A DNA stretch of 53,880 nt. It comes from Patescibacteria group bacterium (GTDB taxonomy: Bacteria > Patescibacteriota > Microgenomatia > UBA1406 > GWC2-37-13). A model generated the notes under the pieces. That model was not told where the DNA came from, did no database searches, and worked only from the letters and a program-made list of their open reading frames with translations. Made by a program: the position numbers and the translations under genes. The stretch spans positions 1-53,880 of the forward strand of contig BPJE01000004.1 in assembly GCA_026004455.1 (NCBI GenBank). The letters run 5' to 3'. Positions 1 through 46,218 of this stretch are shown piece by piece. How positions within the stretch are numbered: the stretch's first letter is position 1; each line of letters starts with the position of its first letter.

Positions 1-1
1 A

Positions 2-559
2 GATTATTGGAATAAAGTTAAATCCACCAGCCGGCAGAAAAAATCAAAAAATTTTTTTAATTATAGAAATTTTTTTCTTGTGGTTTCAAGACTTGAGCTT
101 TATAAAAAAATTGATTTAGTAATTAAAGTTTTTAATAAATTAAAAGAAAATTTAATAATAATTGGTATTGGATCTCAAGAAAAAAGATTAAAAAAACTCG
201 CTAATAAAAATATTACTTTTTTATCAAATTTAAGTGATATTGAGTTAGGTTATTTTTATTCAAATGCTTTAGCTTTGATTATGCCGCAAGAGGAAGATTT
301 TGGTTATGTATCTCTTGAAGCTCAATTTTTTGGTTGTCCAGTTATTGCTTATAAAAAAGGTGGAGCAATAGAGACAGTTATTGAAAATAAAACTGGTTTA
401 TTTTTTAATAATCAAAATGAGGTTGAATTGTTAAGGGCAATTGAAACTTATCATAAAATTAAGTACAATTTAAGACAATCAATTTTAAAATTTGCTGTAG
501 TAAATATAAAAAAATTTACAAAAGAAAAATTTATTAAAAATTTTTTAAAACAAATATGA
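2..559 (+). CDS. Glycosyltransferase family 4 (GT-B fold), C-terminal part, cut by window edge
   Basis: The reading frame is open to the first base, so the gene starts upstream of the window; the GTG at position 80 lies inside a conserved strand (FFLVVSRLELYKKID) and is not a plausible start. The visible part is the nucleotide-sugar-binding Rossmann domain of a group 1 glycosyltransferase. The family E-x7-E signature is present as EEDFGYVSLEAQ (about 290-325), followed by GCPVIAYKKGGAIETV. It would transfer a sugar from an activated donor to a lipid-linked or surface glycan. It overlaps the mannose-1-phosphate guanylyltransferase by ATGA, so it belongs to an exopolysaccharide operon. The stretch read as STSRQKKSK just before the conserved strand comes from a short repeat (see 22-37). 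Donor and acceptor cannot be read from sequence. Confidence 0.85.
   Translation, partial: DYWNKVKSTSRQKKSKNFFNYRNFFLVVSRLELYKKIDLVIKVFNKLKENLIIIGIGSQEKRLKKLANKNITFLSNLSDIELGYFYSNALALIMPQEEDFGYVSLEAQFFGCPVIAYKKGGAIETVIENKTGLFFNNQNEVELLRAIETYHKIKYNLRQSILKFAVVNIKKFTKEKFIKNFLKQI
22..37. repeat. Degenerate copy of the CCGCCAGCTGGCGG palindrome, inside a coding region
   Basis: The bases ATCCACCAGCCGGCAG match the palindromic core found intact at 2309-2322 and 35786-35799 with three substitutions, and the same AAAGTTAA-like left flank is present. Here it is translated in the glycosyltransferase frame as K-S-T-S-R-Q, a different frame from the NnrD copy. Confidence 0.6.
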
Positions 560-19286: not shown

Positions 19287-21536
19287 ATGAAATTAAGGCT
19301 AAATTTTATTTTTAGATTTATTTTTCAAGGACTATATTATTTATCTTCATTTTTTATTTTTATTGGTGAGATTGTTCAACAAATCTTTCTTTTAATTTTT
19401 AATTTTATTTTTAAGATAATCAAGAAAATATTTTATTTTTTTATTCGAATAATCAATAACTTTTTACTGAAGATTAATACTGTTAAATTACCAAAAATTA
19501 GTTTACCTAAAATAAAATCATTAAAAAAAAATTACACGCCAATCAAGATAAAAAAACAACAATCAATTAATTTTATTGTTAAATTAAAGTATTTTTTTTA
19601 TGGAATAATTTTTGCCTCATTGATTTTTTTTACTTACCAAACATATATTTTTTTAAAAAGTTTACCTTCGCCAAAAAATATTGGCAAAATTAACTATCAA
19701 TTATCAACTCATATTTATGATCGAAATGGCAAAATTCTTTATGAGATATATCGAGATCAAAATAGAACCCCAATCTCTTTATCTCAATTACCAAAATATG
19801 TGATTCAAGCAACAATTGCTATAGAAGATAAAGATTTTTACAATCATAAGGGCGTTGATTTAATTGGTGGAGTTTTGAGAGCAATAAAAGAAAATATTTT
19901 TAATAAAGGTGGTATTCAGGGAGGATCAACAATAACTCAACAACTTGTCAAAAGCGCTTTGCTTTCACCTGAGCGAACTTGGGAAAGAAAAATTAAAGAA
20001 ATAATTTTAGCTTTATGGGCAGAAAGGATTTATACAAAAGATCAAATATTGGAAATGTATCTTAATCAAGTATCTTATGGAGGAGCGGCATATGGGGTAG
20101 AGGAGGCGGCAAAAACCTATTTTGGTAAATCAGCAAAAGAGTTAAATCTTGAGGAGGCAGCATTTTTAGCTGGTTTACCTCAAGCACCATCAATTTATTC
20201 TCCCTATAACGATAAAGAAGCAGCAATAAAAAGAAGAAATCAAGTATTAGAGGCAATGTATAAACAAGGGTATATTGATAAGAATTTAAAAGTCAAAAGT
20301 CAAAACTCAAAACTGGACGTTTTACCACCAAAAAATAAGATTTTAGCGCCACATTTTGTTTTCTATGTAAAAAGCCAACTTGAGGATTATTTTGGTACGA
20401 AGATGGTTGAGGAAGGAGGATTAAAAGTAGTTACCACTTTAGATTTAGATATTCAAAAAAAAGCTGAGGAGATTTTAAAAGAAGAGATTGAAAAGATAAG
20501 TTATCTTAATGTGACAAATGGAGCAATTTTGGTGACTCGCCCATCAACTGGTGAAATATTGGCAATGGTTGGATCAGTTGATTACTTTTTAGAGCCATGG
20601 GGTGCTTTTAATGTTACAACTGGCCTTCGTCAACCAGGATCATCGATAAAACCATTAATGTATTCTTTAGCTTTGCAAAATGGATTTACTGCCGCTACTA
20701 TCCTTGATGATTCACCAACAGTTTTTCAGATACCAGGAAGTGTTCCTTATAAGCCAGTTAATTATGATGGAAAATTTCATGGTAAAATACCACTTCGATA
20801 TGCTTTAGCTAATTCTTATAATATTCCGGCAGTCAAAGTCATGGAGAAAATTGGAGTAGAAAATTTTATTGATTATGCTCAAAAATTAGGAATTACCACT
20901 TGGCAAGACAAAAATCGCTATGGTTTGTCTTTGGCTTTAGGTGGTGGTGAAGTGAGAATGGTTGATATGGCGCAAGCTTTTGGAGTGTTAGCAAATTTAG
21001 GATTTAAAGTACCTTTAACTTATTATTTAAAAATTGAAAATAGTAACGAAGAGATAATAAAAGAGATTAATCCTTTTAAGATAAAAGAGATTGATCATGG
21101 AGTGGCTTATATTATTTCTGATATTTTATCAGATAATCAAGCAAGAGTTTGGGCATTTGGACCAGGATCAGCACTTGAAATTCCTGGATTTAGAGTAGCG
21201 GTAAAGACTGGAACAACAGATAATAAAAAAGACAACTGGACAATAGGTTATACGCCTGATTTTTTAGTAGTAGTTTGGGTGGGTAATAATGATGGTACAC
21301 CAATGAATCCATATTTAACTTCAGGAATCACTGGCGCAGCTCCTATTTGGAATAGAATGATGAGTTATCTTCTTAAAAATTATGTTGGTGAGGATCATTG
21401 GTATAAAAAACCAGATAATGTGGTAGAAAAATATTGTTTTTTTGGTAGAAAAGAGTATTTTATTTCTGGTACTGAAAATAAAGTCAGTTGCCAAAATCAA
21501 ATTTTTATTACTCCAACTAAAGCAGAAAATAATTAA
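19287..21536 (+). CDS. Class A penicillin-binding protein (bifunctional transglycosylase/transpeptidase)
   Basis: It polymerises and cross-links peptidoglycan. The long N-terminus is hydrophobic and basic (residues 1-130), with a clear membrane segment at about 108-124. The GT51 domain follows: IAIEDKDFYNHKGVD, GGSTITQQLVK, RKIKEIILALWAERIYTKDQILEMYLNQVSYG and LEEAAFLAGLPQAPSIYSPY. The transpeptidase has SxxK in GSSIKPLMYSLAL, SxN in ANSYNIPAVK and KTG in AVKTGTTDNKKDNW. 749 residues is normal. Residues about 335-342 (KVKSQNSK), in the linker between domains, derive from an AAAAGTC-type repeat. It shares only 9 bp with convergent serS. Confidence 0.93.
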   Translation: MKLRLNFIFRFIFQGLYYLSSFFIFIGEIVQQIFLLIFNFIFKIIKKIFYFFIRIINNFLLKINTVKLPKISLPKIKSLKKNYTPIKIKKQQSINFIVKLKYFFYGIIFASLIFFTYQTYIFLKSLPSPKNIGKINYQLSTHIYDRNGKILYEIYRDQNRTPISLSQLPKYVIQATIAIEDKDFYNHKGVDLIGGVLRAIKENIFNKGGIQGGSTITQQLVKSALLSPERTWERKIKEIILALWAERIYTKDQILEMYLNQVSYGGAAYGVEEAAKTYFGKSAKELNLEEAAFLAGLPQAPSIYSPYNDKEAAIKRRNQVLEAMYKQGYIDKNLKVKSQNSKLDVLPPKNKILAPHFVFYVKSQLEDYFGTKMVEEGGLKVVTTLDLDIQKKAEEILKEEIEKISYLNVTNGAILVTRPSTGEILAMVGSVDYFLEPWGAFNVTTGLRQPGSSIKPLMYSLALQNGFTAATILDDSPTVFQIPGSVPYKPVNYDGKFHGKIPLRYALANSYNIPAVKVMEKIGVENFIDYAQKLGITTWQDKNRYGLSLALGGGEVRMVDMAQAFGVLANLGFKVPLTYYLKIENSNEEIIKEINPFKIKEIDHGVAYIISDILSDNQARVWAFGPGSALEIPGFRVAVKTGTTDNKKDNWTIGYTPDFLVVVWVGNNDGTPMNPYLTSGITGAAPIWNRMMSYLLKNYVGEDHWYKKPDNVVEKYCFFGRKEYFISGTENKVSCQNQIFITPTKAENN
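20289..20315. repeat. AAAAGTC-type heptamer repeat inside the penicillin-binding protein gene
   Basis: AAAGTCAAAAGTCAAAACTC is the same heptamer array seen in the intergenic repeats, here translated in frame as KVKSQNSKL in the interdomain linker. The residues QNSKL also occur where the repeat enters TsaE. Confidence 0.6.
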
Positions 21537-32061: not shown

Positions 32062-32151
32062 AAAAAATTAATCTAAGTTCTAATTAACCTAAAATAAAGA
32101 AAATAACAAATAATAAATTTTTAATCAATAATAAATATTTCAATAAATTAA

Positions 32152-32270
32152 TAAGTCAAAAGTTAAAATTCAAAAGTCAAAAATAAAAGGCAAAAGTCAA
32201 AAGTTTTTTTTAAATTTTAAATTTTTAATTTTCATTTTGACTTTTGATTTTTGCATTTTGAATTTTATTT
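32152..32270. repeat. AAAAGTC-type intergenic repeat, copy upstream of alaS
   Basis: The left arm is built of AAAAGTC/AAAATTC heptamers and the right arm of their complements (TTTTGACTTTTG, CATTTTGAATTTT), with an AT-rich middle. The whole could fold into one long imperfect hairpin. Closely similar copies lie at 42110, 46100 and 48391. Confidence 0.7.
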
Positions 32271-32338
32271 TGTTTACTACTTACTACTTTTTTTCCTTAA
32301 TTACTTGATTACTCAACTACTTTTTATACTTATTTTTT

Positions 32339-35443: not shown

Positions 35444-36373
35444 ATGAAAGTGATTAAAACGCAAGATATTGATGTGGTAAAAAGTATTTTTAAACGTTTA
35501 GTGTTACCAGATGTTAATTCTCATAAAGGGGAAAATGGGAAAATTTTGATTATTGGCGGTTCATCTTTATTTCATGCTGCTTCACTTTGGGCAGCGGAGA
35601 CAGCTTCTTTTTTTGTTGATATAGTTCATTATTCATCAACTGAAGAAAATCAGAAAATATTTTTAAATTTAAAAACTAAATTTAGAAATGGAATTATTGT
35701 TAAAAAAGCAAATTTATTAGATTATGTCAAAGAAGATGATGTGATTTTGATGGGGACAGGGATGGTAAGACAATTAAAAGTCAATCCGCCAGCTGGCGGA
35801 CAAAAGTTAAAAGTTGAAATAAAAAAAATCTTTTCATTAAAAGATGAAGGAGAGTATACATATTTTTTGACAAAGTATTTGATTGAGAATTTTCCAGAGA
35901 AAAAGTTCGTTTTTGATGCAGGGAGTTTACAAATGATGGAAAAAGACTGGCTTTTAAATTTAAAGATAACACCAATTATTACTCCTCATCAAAAAGAGTT
36001 TGAGACACTTTTTCAAGAAAAAATCATTAATTTAAATTTTGATGACAAAATTAAGCTTGTAGAAAAAACCGCAAAAAAATATAAAATAGTTATTTTATTA
36101 AAAGCTATTAGAGATATTATTTCTGATGGAAAAAATACTTATGTTATTGAAGGTGGTAATCAAGGGTTAACAAAAGGTGGTACTGGAGATGTTTTAGCGG
36201 CCTTAGCTAGTTGTTTTTATATTAAAAATAATCCGATTGAGGCAGCATTATTGGCATCTTTGCTTTTAAAATTAACTGCTGATGAGCTTTTTAAAACTTA
36301 TGGATATTGGTATAATGTTAGTGTGGTTATTGATAATTTACCAAAAGTTTTAATGAGAAATATTAATATATGA
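35444..36373 (+). CDS. nnrD: ADP/ATP-dependent NAD(P)H-hydrate dehydratase, with a repeat-derived insertion
   Basis: It repairs hydrated NAD(P)H. The ribokinase-like YjeF C-terminal domain is recognisable by HKGENGKILIIGGSSLFHAASLWAAETAS, FVFDAGSLQMM, ITPHQKEFETLF and the catalytic block GLTKGGTGDVLAALAS. The partner epimerase NnrE is not fused, and 309 residues suits the single domain. Residues about 112-126 (LKVNPPAGGQKLKVE) are encoded by the CCGCCAGCTGGCGG repeat with its AAAGTT flanks and lie in a loop after GTGMVRQ, between conserved strands. Its stop overlaps the next gene (ATGA). Confidence 0.88.
   Translation: MKVIKTQDIDVVKSIFKRLVLPDVNSHKGENGKILIIGGSSLFHAASLWAAETASFFVDIVHYSSTEENQKIFLNLKTKFRNGIIVKKANLLDYVKEDDVILMGTGMVRQLKVNPPAGGQKLKVEIKKIFSLKDEGEYTYFLTKYLIENFPEKKFVFDAGSLQMMEKDWLLNLKITPIITPHQKEFETLFQEKIINLNFDDKIKLVEKTAKKYKIVILLKAIRDIISDGKNTYVIEGGNQGLTKGGTGDVLAALASCFYIKNNPIEAALLASLLLKLTADELFKTYGYWYNVSVVIDNLPKVLMRNINI
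35778..35818. repeat. Palindromic repeat in frame inside nnrD
   Basis: The perfect core CCGCCAGCTGGCGG (35786-35799) has flanks AAAAGTCAAT on the left and ACAAAAGTTAAAAGTT on the right, the same arrangement as in intergenic copies. It encodes P-P-A-G-G in frame; the frame used differs from that of the glycosyltransferase copy. Confidence 0.8.
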
Positions 36374-42109: not shown

Positions 42110-42224
42110 AATTCAAAAGTTAAAATTCAAAAGTCAAAAGTATAAGTTAAAATTAAAAAGTTTTTTTAAATTTTGAATTTTGAATTTTCATTTTGACTTT
42201 TGACTTTTGCATTTTGAATTTTAT
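42110..42224. repeat. AAAAGTC-type intergenic repeat upstream of glmS
   Basis: Heptamers TTCAAAAGTTAAAATTC, AAAAGTC on the left and CATTTTGACTTTTGACTTTTG, CATTTTGAATTTT on the right, nearly the same as the copy at 32152. It fills the gap between glmS and the exonuclease gene. Confidence 0.7.
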
Positions 42225-45020: not shown

Positions 45021-46109
45021 ATGAAAATTATCAATTTAAATCAAGATCTTTCAAAAGTTAACAATCAGGTAGTTGAGATTTTAAAAATAGGTGGATTAGT
45101 AATTTATCCTTCAGATACTGTTTATGGTGCTTTAGTTGATGCAACCAACAAACAAGCGGTTGAAAAATTAATAAAATTTAAAAATCGGCCACCTGGTAAA
45201 GCAATTTCTGTTTTTGTTTCTGGATGGAAAATGATGGAGGAATTAGTTGAGATGGATCAAAGACAAAGAGAGATTTTAAAAGAGATTTTACCTGGATGTT
45301 TTACAGTTGTTTTAAAATCAAGAAAAAAAGTTGTTAATCTTCTTGAATCAGAAAAGCAGACATTAGGAGTAAGACTTGTTAAATATGAACCAGTTATTGA
45401 TTTAGTTTCTAAATTCAAAAAACCAGTAACAGCGACTTCCGCGAATTTAGGTGGTAAACCACCTCATCATTCAATTGATTCTCTTTTAAAACAACTGCCA
45501 AAATACAAACAAGAGTTAATTGATTTGATTGTTGATGCAGGAAAATTACCTCGCAATAAACCATCAACAGTAATTGATTTGACAACGCCTGAGATAAAAA
45601 TTTTGCGTCATGGAGATGTTAGTTTTTATAAAAAGCAAGAGTTTATTTCAAAATCAGTTAAAGAAACAAAAGCAATTGCTAAAAAAATTATTTTTAATTT
45701 TCTTCAAGACTTAGAAAAAAAACCATTGATTTTTATTTTAGAAGGAGATTTAGGAGTTGGTAAAACAGTTTTTGTTAAAGGATTAGGTGAGTATTTTGAG
45801 ATAAAAGATATTGTTTCACCAAGTTTTGTGGTGATGTACGAGTATGAAATAAAGTCAAAAGTCCCGCCTAAAACGGCGGGCAGGCAAAATTCAAAGTTAA
45901 TTCATGTTGATTTGTATAATGTGGAGGAAAAGGAGGAGTTTAAATATTTGGGGATTAATGATTATTTAAAACCAGGAAATATTTTGGCAATTGAGTGGGG
46001 AGAAAAATCAGGAGAGATTTTTGAGAATCTAAGAAAAAAAGGAAAGGTTGTGATTGTGGATATGGAGTATATAAGTGAGAAGGAGAGAAAAATAATAATT
46101 AAAAGTTAA
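45021..46109 (+). CDS. TsaC-TsaE fusion: threonylcarbamoyl-AMP synthase joined to the t6A P-loop ATPase
   Basis: Both activities serve t6A37 modification of ANN-decoding tRNAs. Residues 1-about 205 are TsaC/Sua5 (YrdC fold): GGLVIYPSDTVYGAL, KFKNRPPGKAISVFV, LPGCFTVVLKS, LGVRLVKYEPV and TATSANLGGKP. Residues about 215-362 are TsaE: LEGDLGVGKTVFVKGLGEYF (Walker A at about 242-249), SPSFVVMYEYEI, LIHVDLYNVEEKEEFKYLGI and ILAIEWGEK. I know the two as separate genes in most bacteria. Residues 278-292 (KSKVPPKTAGRQNSK) come from a repeat insertion between two TsaE strands. The stop codon lies inside another repeat (AAAAGTTAAAAGTC). tsaD follows. Confidence 0.9.
   Translation: MKIINLNQDLSKVNNQVVEILKIGGLVIYPSDTVYGALVDATNKQAVEKLIKFKNRPPGKAISVFVSGWKMMEELVEMDQRQREILKEILPGCFTVVLKSRKKVVNLLESEKQTLGVRLVKYEPVIDLVSKFKKPVTATSANLGGKPPHHSIDSLLKQLPKYKQELIDLIVDAGKLPRNKPSTVIDLTTPEIKILRHGDVSFYKKQEFISKSVKETKAIAKKIIFNFLQDLEKKPLIFILEGDLGVGKTVFVKGLGEYFEIKDIVSPSFVVMYEYEIKSKVPPKTAGRQNSKLIHVDLYNVEEKEEFKYLGINDYLKPGNILAIEWGEKSGEIFENLRKKGKVVIVDMEYISEKERKIIIKS
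45851..45896. repeat. GTCCCGCC...GGCGGGCAGGC repeat in frame inside tsaE
   Basis: About 35 bases from 45856 to 45890 are identical to the intergenic copy at 23467-23501, including the CCCGCC-TAAAAC-GGCGGG hairpin. It is flanked by AAAGTC and TCAAAGTT heptamer pieces. In the TsaE frame it reads V-P-P-K-T-A-G-R-Q-N. Confidence 0.85.
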
Positions 46110-46218
46110 AAGTCAAAATTCAAAAGTCAAAAGTTTAAGTTAAAAGTTAAAATTTTTATTTTTAAATTTTTTAATTTTGAATTTTAATTTTGATTTTTGA
46201 TTTTTAAATTTTGAATTA
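46100..46218. repeat. AAAAGTC-type intergenic repeat between tsaC-tsaE and tsaD
   Basis: The left arm starts within the tsaC-tsaE coding end and provides its TAA (AGT TAA AAG TC). Heptamers run to about 46150, then complementary TTTTGATTTTTGATTTT units follow. It is the only sequence between the two t6A genes. Confidence 0.65.

Follow-up and report, generated by a model that had tools for sequence, protein, structure and literature searches.

A 16-nt GC-rich palindrome recurs in the genomes of many of the ultra-small Patescibacteria (CPR), both between genes and in frame within unrelated conserved and often essential genes, and we consider it probable (at about 0.8) that it is a non-autonomous small dispersed hairpin repeat, which has been copied repeatedly into new sites in this phylum and filtered there by selection. 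What is directly observed comprises the sequence and its distribution, its in-frame sense placement, its presence in shared loops in different frames, a difference in junctions between genes and spacers, and its location in a loop in one confident structural model. The proposed unit is TCCGCCA[G/A][C/T]TGGCGGA, foldable as a 6-bp hairpin, which would enter mostly A-rich period-7 arrays of the form (TCAAANN)n and replace 3-4 nt of them. Read in sense, palindrome and flanks seldom have a stop codon in any frame, and where the net change in length is divisible by three (usually +12 nt) the receiving gene would thus stay open and gain PPAGG, SASWR or IRQLAD. Selection would then keep the sense, in-frame copies in disordered surface loops, other copies lying between genes. 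Copying would occur in trans or by repair, and the model assigns no enzyme to it.

The palindrome in the 53,880-nt window

The window (the whole stretch of DNA analyzed, 53,880 nt) was scanned for the 14-mer CCGCCAGCTGGCGG, which occurs exactly at 2309-2322 and 35786-35799, as reported in the initial annotation. With up to three mismatches allowed there are three matches, where shuffled sequence gives a mean of 0.01.

The copy at 35786-35799 lies within nnrD (35444-36373, + strand), which encodes an NAD(P)H-hydrate dehydratase (PF01256), and extends to a perfect 16-nt palindrome, TCCGCCAGCTGGCGGA (35785-35800, +), read in sense as (N)PPAGG(Q) with a CAAT/ACAAA junction. It is self-complementary throughout and folds as a hairpin with a 6-bp stem and a 4-nt loop (-6.5 kcal/mol, z -3.2). 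Together with its A-rich heptamer-type flanks, AAAAGTCAA ... CAAAAGTTAAAAGTTGAA, it spans 35776-35818 (+) and belongs to a variable loop of the protein at residues ~111-133. The intergenic copy (2308-2323, core 2309-2322, +) has the intergenic form of the junction, AAAT, and pairs with itself at 14 of 16 positions.

The third match is a degenerate copy with three mismatches, CCACCAGCCGGCAG, whose segment at 23-38 pairs with itself at 10 of 16 positions. It is present in the glycosyltransferase gene as claimed, the position being 24-37 (+) rather than 22-37. This GT4 gene (PF00534; ORF 2-559, +) is represented by its 3' part, as it runs off the contig end with the remainder on contig C1. The copy falls in a loop following VIYPP that is also the site of copies at two other loci (L102 and L159). 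It is read as STSRQ, so that the claim of different frames in the two coding copies (PPAGG in NnrD, STSRQ in the glycosyltransferase) is confirmed. Window positions 1-245 are the reverse complement of C1:1-245, and contigs C4 and C1 thus overlap and can be joined there; since the GT4 copy sits in this 245-bp overlap, it is one physical copy that a genome search counts twice.

The flanks differ among the three copies, being AAAAGTCAAT / ACAAAAGTTAAAAGTT in nnrD, AAAAATT heptamers at the intergenic site and AAAGTTAAAT / AAAAAAATCAAAA in the GT4 gene. The AAAGT(T/C)AA-like flanks ascribed to all copies are therefore only partly upheld, as what the copies have in common is a period of 7 (consensus TCAAANN) and not one heptamer.

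Distribution in the source genome and across Patescibacteria

The genome from which the window derives (G000; 895 kb, 92% complete) contains eight exact copies of the 14-mer and 40 at up to three mismatches, compared with five for the reversed control. A search for further copies was productive at both scales: 22 sites in this genome fit the pattern CCGCCARYTGGCGG (0 for the reversed control), and the exact 24-mer TCAATCCGCCARYTGGCGGACAAA, which includes conserved flanks, is found in 75 stretches among GTDB genomes. Among the 16 single-mismatch copies the change falls in the four-base central loop in 12 and in the ten arm bases in four (P=1.6e-4), as would be expected if the sequence has to form a hairpin, or if a protein reads the arms. 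When the copies are oriented by their flanks a single consensus results, (a)TCAAT-core-ACAAA, and a search with the flanks only (TCAAT-N14-ACAAAA) finds 20 places, about 13 of them with the palindrome.

About half of the copies in G000 are intragenic (~15 coding and 18 non-coding). All of the intragenic copies are in sense, and three frames are used, giving NPPAGGQ, QSASWRT and SIRQLADK. The host genes, some of them named from their sequence only, encode a MiaB-type radical SAM protein, LeuRS, NnrD, a peptidase M24, pyruvate:ferredoxin oxidoreductase, glycosyltransferases and transketolase.

Nearly all of the named hosts of the 24-mer are Patescibacteria, and include Roizman-, Gottesman-, Shapiro-, Levy-, Davies-, Moran-, Falkow-, Kuenen-, Wildermuth-, Wolfe-, Portnoy-, Yanofsky- and Nomurabacteria. 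The sole named record from outside the phylum is labelled Sunxiuqinia (L133), and may reflect a misbinned contig or a transfer. The exact 14-mer is present in 31 of 57 relatives. Across the phylum the distribution of CCGCCARYTGGCGG is patchy, with 1-31 copies in each of 84 of the 287 genomes and none in the other 203; the reversed control is matched in two genomes. In distant lineages the core is often found in other contexts without TCAAANN flanks, and some of these copies are intragenic.

Two loci have cores in close proximity. Within a miaA-like gene (L100, near 3194) two cores are 26 nt apart, in a tandem or nested arrangement, and at L224 (near 1201) a diverged copy lies immediately 5' of an intact one.

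Placement within protein-coding genes

Open reading frames of at least 120 residues contain 58 of the 75 places with the 24-mer, and in 54 cases there are at least 20 residues on either side. The three frames are represented by 21, 23 and 14 copies, and there are no antisense copies. Over 42 nt of the element 2.5 frames are open in sense versus 1.0 in antisense, and stop codons alone predict a sense share of 71%, compared with the 58/58 seen (P about 3e-9); selection against a hydrophobic antisense peptide may account for part of the antisense deficit.

Host proteins from ten homologous groups were aligned with the element masked, and the element is at the identical alignment position in 14 of 30 homologous pairs. 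It occupies the NnrD loop in three frames in three genomes, and two frames are used at each of the sites in LeuRS (G000 and a Wildermuthbacterium), PolI, SecF and peptidase M24 (PepP). The GT4 loop after VIYPP contains the element in four genes, and in GluRS four congeners use the IRQLAD frame and a Gottesmanbacterium the SASWR frame. The simplest reading of these sequences is that the same loops were entered independently in different frames, with re-framing by slippage in the flanks as an alternative for close relatives.

The initial annotation had named homologues with the same residues in the absence of the nucleotide repeat as evidence that would count against an inserted element. The interpretation stood up to this test as it did to the search for further copies: 29 relatives have either no NnrD loop or a different one, the loop being wholly missing from many congeners, and the LeuRS and GluRS loops likewise differ in homologues without the repeat. 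The suggestion that insertions are tolerated in surface loops agrees with a structural model of NnrD (30 sequences; mean pLDDT 90.6, pTM 0.92), in which residues 104-125 are coil and residues 111-120 have a pLDDT of 58.

Period-7 arrays and other palindromes in the same loops

The heptamer flanks, listed with the palindrome in the initial annotation, are a separate period-7 repeat, which also occurs alone at these loops. In 535 kb of sequence there is a specific excess of period-7 arrays (69 at lag 7 and 49 at lag 14, where other lags have 0-9), and the excess extends to loci chosen without regard to the element (16 and 18 arrays versus 0-6 at other lags); 50 kb of E. coli, a control that is not AT-matched, has none. 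The repeated units are widely varied in sequence, and many of the arrays are coding, with others outside genes.

Within the window, a heptamer array without the palindrome, (AAAAGTC)3.6, is situated at 20288-20312 (+) inside the ORF at 19287-21536, and three MITE-like intergenic hairpins that resemble one another (113-129 nt; z between about -4 and -4.5) are formed by opposed heptamer arrays. The first of these (32144-32272; 129 nt, -24.5 kcal/mol, z -4.45) has no palindrome core, and the others are at 42110-42222 (113 nt) and 46099-46217 (119 nt).

Congeners without the palindrome at the NnrD, GluRS and LeuRS sites often have a period-7 array there. In GluRS the segment is swapped at constant length, such that two congeners (G015 and G002) agree at 13/33 inside it and 32/39 downstream. 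The dinucleotides to the left and right of the palindrome are the same in 43 of 75 copies, compared with 15.3 expected, which places the palindrome within locally homogenized arrays; local duplication or homogenization thus also acts on these sequences.

The LeuRS loop of congeners (L226-L255) contains other palindromic families or heptamer arrays, all of them in frame. A repeat of the form CATGGTGAGC..GAACCATG is present in G006 and G009, with about ten copies in the latter genome; sequences of the GTCATTCCC..GGGATGAC type are found in G014 and G015, one of the CCTCCGAGG type in G019, and GGAACAAAAATTTTTGTTCC in G013. Given these several families in one loop, the phenomenon is wider than a single repeat. 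It is conceivable, if rather unlikely, that a general sequence-agnostic process continually rewrites permissive protein loops of Patescibacteria with repetitive DNA, a reading that would cover the 7-nt arrays and the unrelated palindromes in the NnrD, GluRS and LeuRS loops, in sister species and in any frame. If so, the CCGCC palindrome would be the best-conserved trace of a generator of loop diversity and not an ordinary transposable element.

Junctions and length change

The 3' arm of the intergenic hairpin at 42.1 kb, AAAATTCAAAATGCAAAAGTCAAA-AGT-CAAAATGAAAATTCAAAATTCAAAATTT, is a near-identical unfilled counterpart of locus L046, where the filled copy has TCTGCCAGCTGGCGGA at the position of AGT. 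From this comparison, the 16-nt palindrome takes the place of 3 nt (+13), or of 4 nt (+12) where the junction has the CAAT form. The frame-preserving CAAT form is found at 12 of 15 copies in genes of G000 and at 1 of 18 in spacers (P=1.4e-5), and a similar pattern is seen in Roizmanbacteria GW2011_GWA2_35_19 (G006), which is in the window's genus (identical sequence). The enrichment of the CAAT form in genes indicates that selection for frame filters the intragenic copies.

The effect on protein length varies among hosts. There is a net gain of four residues in peptidyl-tRNA hydrolase (Pth) relative to solved structures and in Gottesmanbacteria GluRS relative to its relatives, and gains of 15 and ~10 residues in cysteine desulfurase and PolI respectively. 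In phmmer alignments the LeuRS loop does not exceed that of T. thermophilus in length, and an ABC transporter (L217) has no clear length gain and was left out of the evidence. The GluRS proteins of four congeners have the element at a single site and are equal in length to those of congeners without it, which corresponds to replacement and to vertical inheritance. The proposal of a clean, length-adding insertion at every site was rejected: it holds for Pth and Gottesmanbacteria GluRS and fails for NnrD, because its variable loop is also filled by heptamers, and for the GluRS congeners, because at least this site was replaced without a change in length.

We infer from the distribution that the palindrome is mobile, copied in trans between loci as opposed to having arisen locally. 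The filled and unfilled sites compared belong to different loci or species, and the self-spreading proposed in the initial annotation is therefore retained as a reading of the distribution. The equal-length GluRS site of the four congeners, the matching flanking dinucleotides and the lack of palindrome ends at the two RAYT loci read (see below) weigh against the model.

Candidate mobilizers and alternative explanations

Copying of a single-stranded hairpin by a trans-acting activity, either an HUH/Y1-type transposase or repair at forks, would be the most likely route for a mobile palindrome. Retrotransposition through an RNA intermediate was also considered and is unlikely in the genus, with reverse transcriptase (PF00078, RVT_1) absent from all 20 genus genomes.

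A tenable alternative, on balance doubtful, is that no transposase is involved and that a repair or replication process, acting at forks or breaks, rewrites permissive segments through tandem duplication of 7 nt and templated insertion of hairpins, the CCGCC palindrome being one frequent product. Such a process would accommodate the specific period-7 excess of many unrelated sequences, including that at loci selected independently of the element, the equal-length replacement of the GluRS loop by varied heptamers or by the palindrome, the five or more distinct palindromic sequences that congeners hold in their LeuRS loop, and the homogenized flanking dinucleotides. However, a fixed 16-nt sequence that is shared phylum-wide needs a template copied between loci and genomes, and slippage alone supplies none.

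We regard it as improbable, though well short of negligible, that the palindrome is a REP moved by a REP-associated tyrosine transposase (RAYT; Y1, IS200-like) of the same genome. Small hairpins are known substrates of RAYTs, and a search with PF01797 finds Y1_Tnp in G000 and in 44 of the 57 relatives. Palindrome and Y1 counts are weakly correlated (rho 0.31, P=0.02), with palindromes in 27 of the 44 genomes that have Y1 and in 4 of the 13 without it; these last are drafts, such that the presence of the palindrome where no Y1 is detected weighs only weakly against a transposase. The genomic context is harder to reconcile with a RAYT. The sole Y1 gene of G000 is RAYT-like (L065:772-1479, - strand) but has another hairpin, AAGGACAGAACCT..AGGTTCTGTCCTT, at its flanks, and the RAYT gene of G006 has no adjoining CCGCC palindrome, so that neither of the two RAYT loci read has palindrome ends. 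A RAYT-like ORF is present within the fetched stretch at just 2 of the 75 element loci, and the core lacks a GTAG tag, the foot of its hairpin being TCAA / CAAA. Moreover, the flanked form is mostly intragenic (58/75), whereas REPs are mainly extragenic (PMC3733652). A sequence similar to the RAYT-flanking hairpin, GGACAGAACC, recurs at L065:4452, and G000 probably has a second repeat family.

The remaining explanations can be set aside more readily. A functional DNA motif that evolved in place by point mutation and tolerates coding positions, whether as an uptake signal, a regulator or a site associated with replication, is very improbable. Uptake sequences do occur in genes too, and Patescibacteria are thought to be competent, but DNA uptake sequences number hundreds to thousands of copies per genome, compared with 0-31 here and absence from most of the phylum genomes, and a motif of this kind would not explain the net length gains, the flanks carried along, or the fact that unrelated genes have copies in each of the three frames. 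An assembly, adapter or contamination artifact might be suspected, given that the data are all metagenome-assembled genomes and that one end of the window contig overlaps another contig, but is scarcely credible in view of the many independent MAGs, the diverged copies, the conserved natural flanks and the vertical inheritance in GluRS. Conservation of PPAGG, SASWR or IRQLAD as native protein motifs, to which the natural reading of the GluRS site as QKSIRQLADQ in four congeners might appeal, is refuted by the frame changes, with one DNA read in three frames in the same loop of homologous proteins and with relatives that lack the residues.

Relationship to known repeats

The comparison made in the initial annotation was with the Rickettsia palindromic elements (RPE), reportedly first described by Ogata et al. 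in 2000. The element described here is real and RPE-like in its mode of action, and is not a member of the RPE. The likeness is that both are palindromic and hairpin-forming (here 16 nt, z -3.2), that copies occur in spacers and in frame in unrelated conserved genes in a translatable orientation, and that no dedicated transposase is known. At 16 nt, however, with flank information falling to background within ~15-20 nt, it is far smaller than the RPE, which are about 105-150 bp long with terminal inverted repeats of roughly 12 bp (PMC2229807, PMC10969869), and it encodes 5-8 residues as opposed to tens. It also differs in using three frames about equally, in being mostly in period-7 arrays, and in spanning many families of another phylum. 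Among the aligned copies there is no CGTC next to the core, the tag of the families considered (RPE-4/RPE-6), the relation being judged by this tag; CGTC REPs are likewise without a dedicated transposase (PMC3733652).

REPs and their RAYTs share with the element the character of small GC-rich multicopy palindromes (GTAG REPs, PMC3733652; REPINs, PMC3116915), a few species are known to carry REPs within genes, and RAYT-like genes are present in this lineage. The palindrome nonetheless has neither a GTAG nor a CGTC tag, is not beside the RAYT genes read, and is mostly intragenic. MITEs are also non-autonomous, AT-rich hairpins, and the paired heptamer arrays of the window are MITE-like in size and fold, but the palindrome lacks terminal inverted repeats of known IS and a demonstrated target duplication. 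The agreement of flanking dinucleotides, which would be the sign of such a duplication, is equally explained by homogenization of the arrays, and no autonomous partner is seen.

The small dispersed repeats (SDR) of Nostoc are said by Elhai et al. (2008) to be hairpin repeats of 21-27 nt, often in tandem heptamers or nested in other repeats. By this description the element, with its 16-nt core (24-26 nt with fixed flanks) and its period-7 context, may resemble them, and they differ in belonging to another phylum; we know of no record of systematic in-frame insertion of Nostoc SDRs in housekeeping genes. To our knowledge the palindrome is the smallest protein-coding palindromic element, and among the papers searched none has the 14-mer and none deals with such repeats in Patescibacteria.

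Protein-coding palindromic repeats have so far been regarded as peculiar to Rickettsia and Wolbachia, apart from scattered intragenic REPs elsewhere. The core proteins that the element appears to have entered repeatedly, in a streamlined and mostly uncultivated phylum, include aminoacyl-tRNA synthetases, DNA polymerase I, NnrD and SecF. With the same loops occupied in different frames, its host genes would constitute natural insertional scans of the tolerance of proteins to extra sequence. Because the palindrome is associated with period-7 arrays and several families share the LeuRS loop, the movement of small repeats can be tested directly by comparing close strains.

In one complete relative genome (G053) the palindrome lies beside tRNA-Gln, within sequence resembling a tRNA remnant (L173:4690-4765), where the order is T-arm, palindrome and D-arm-like sequence.
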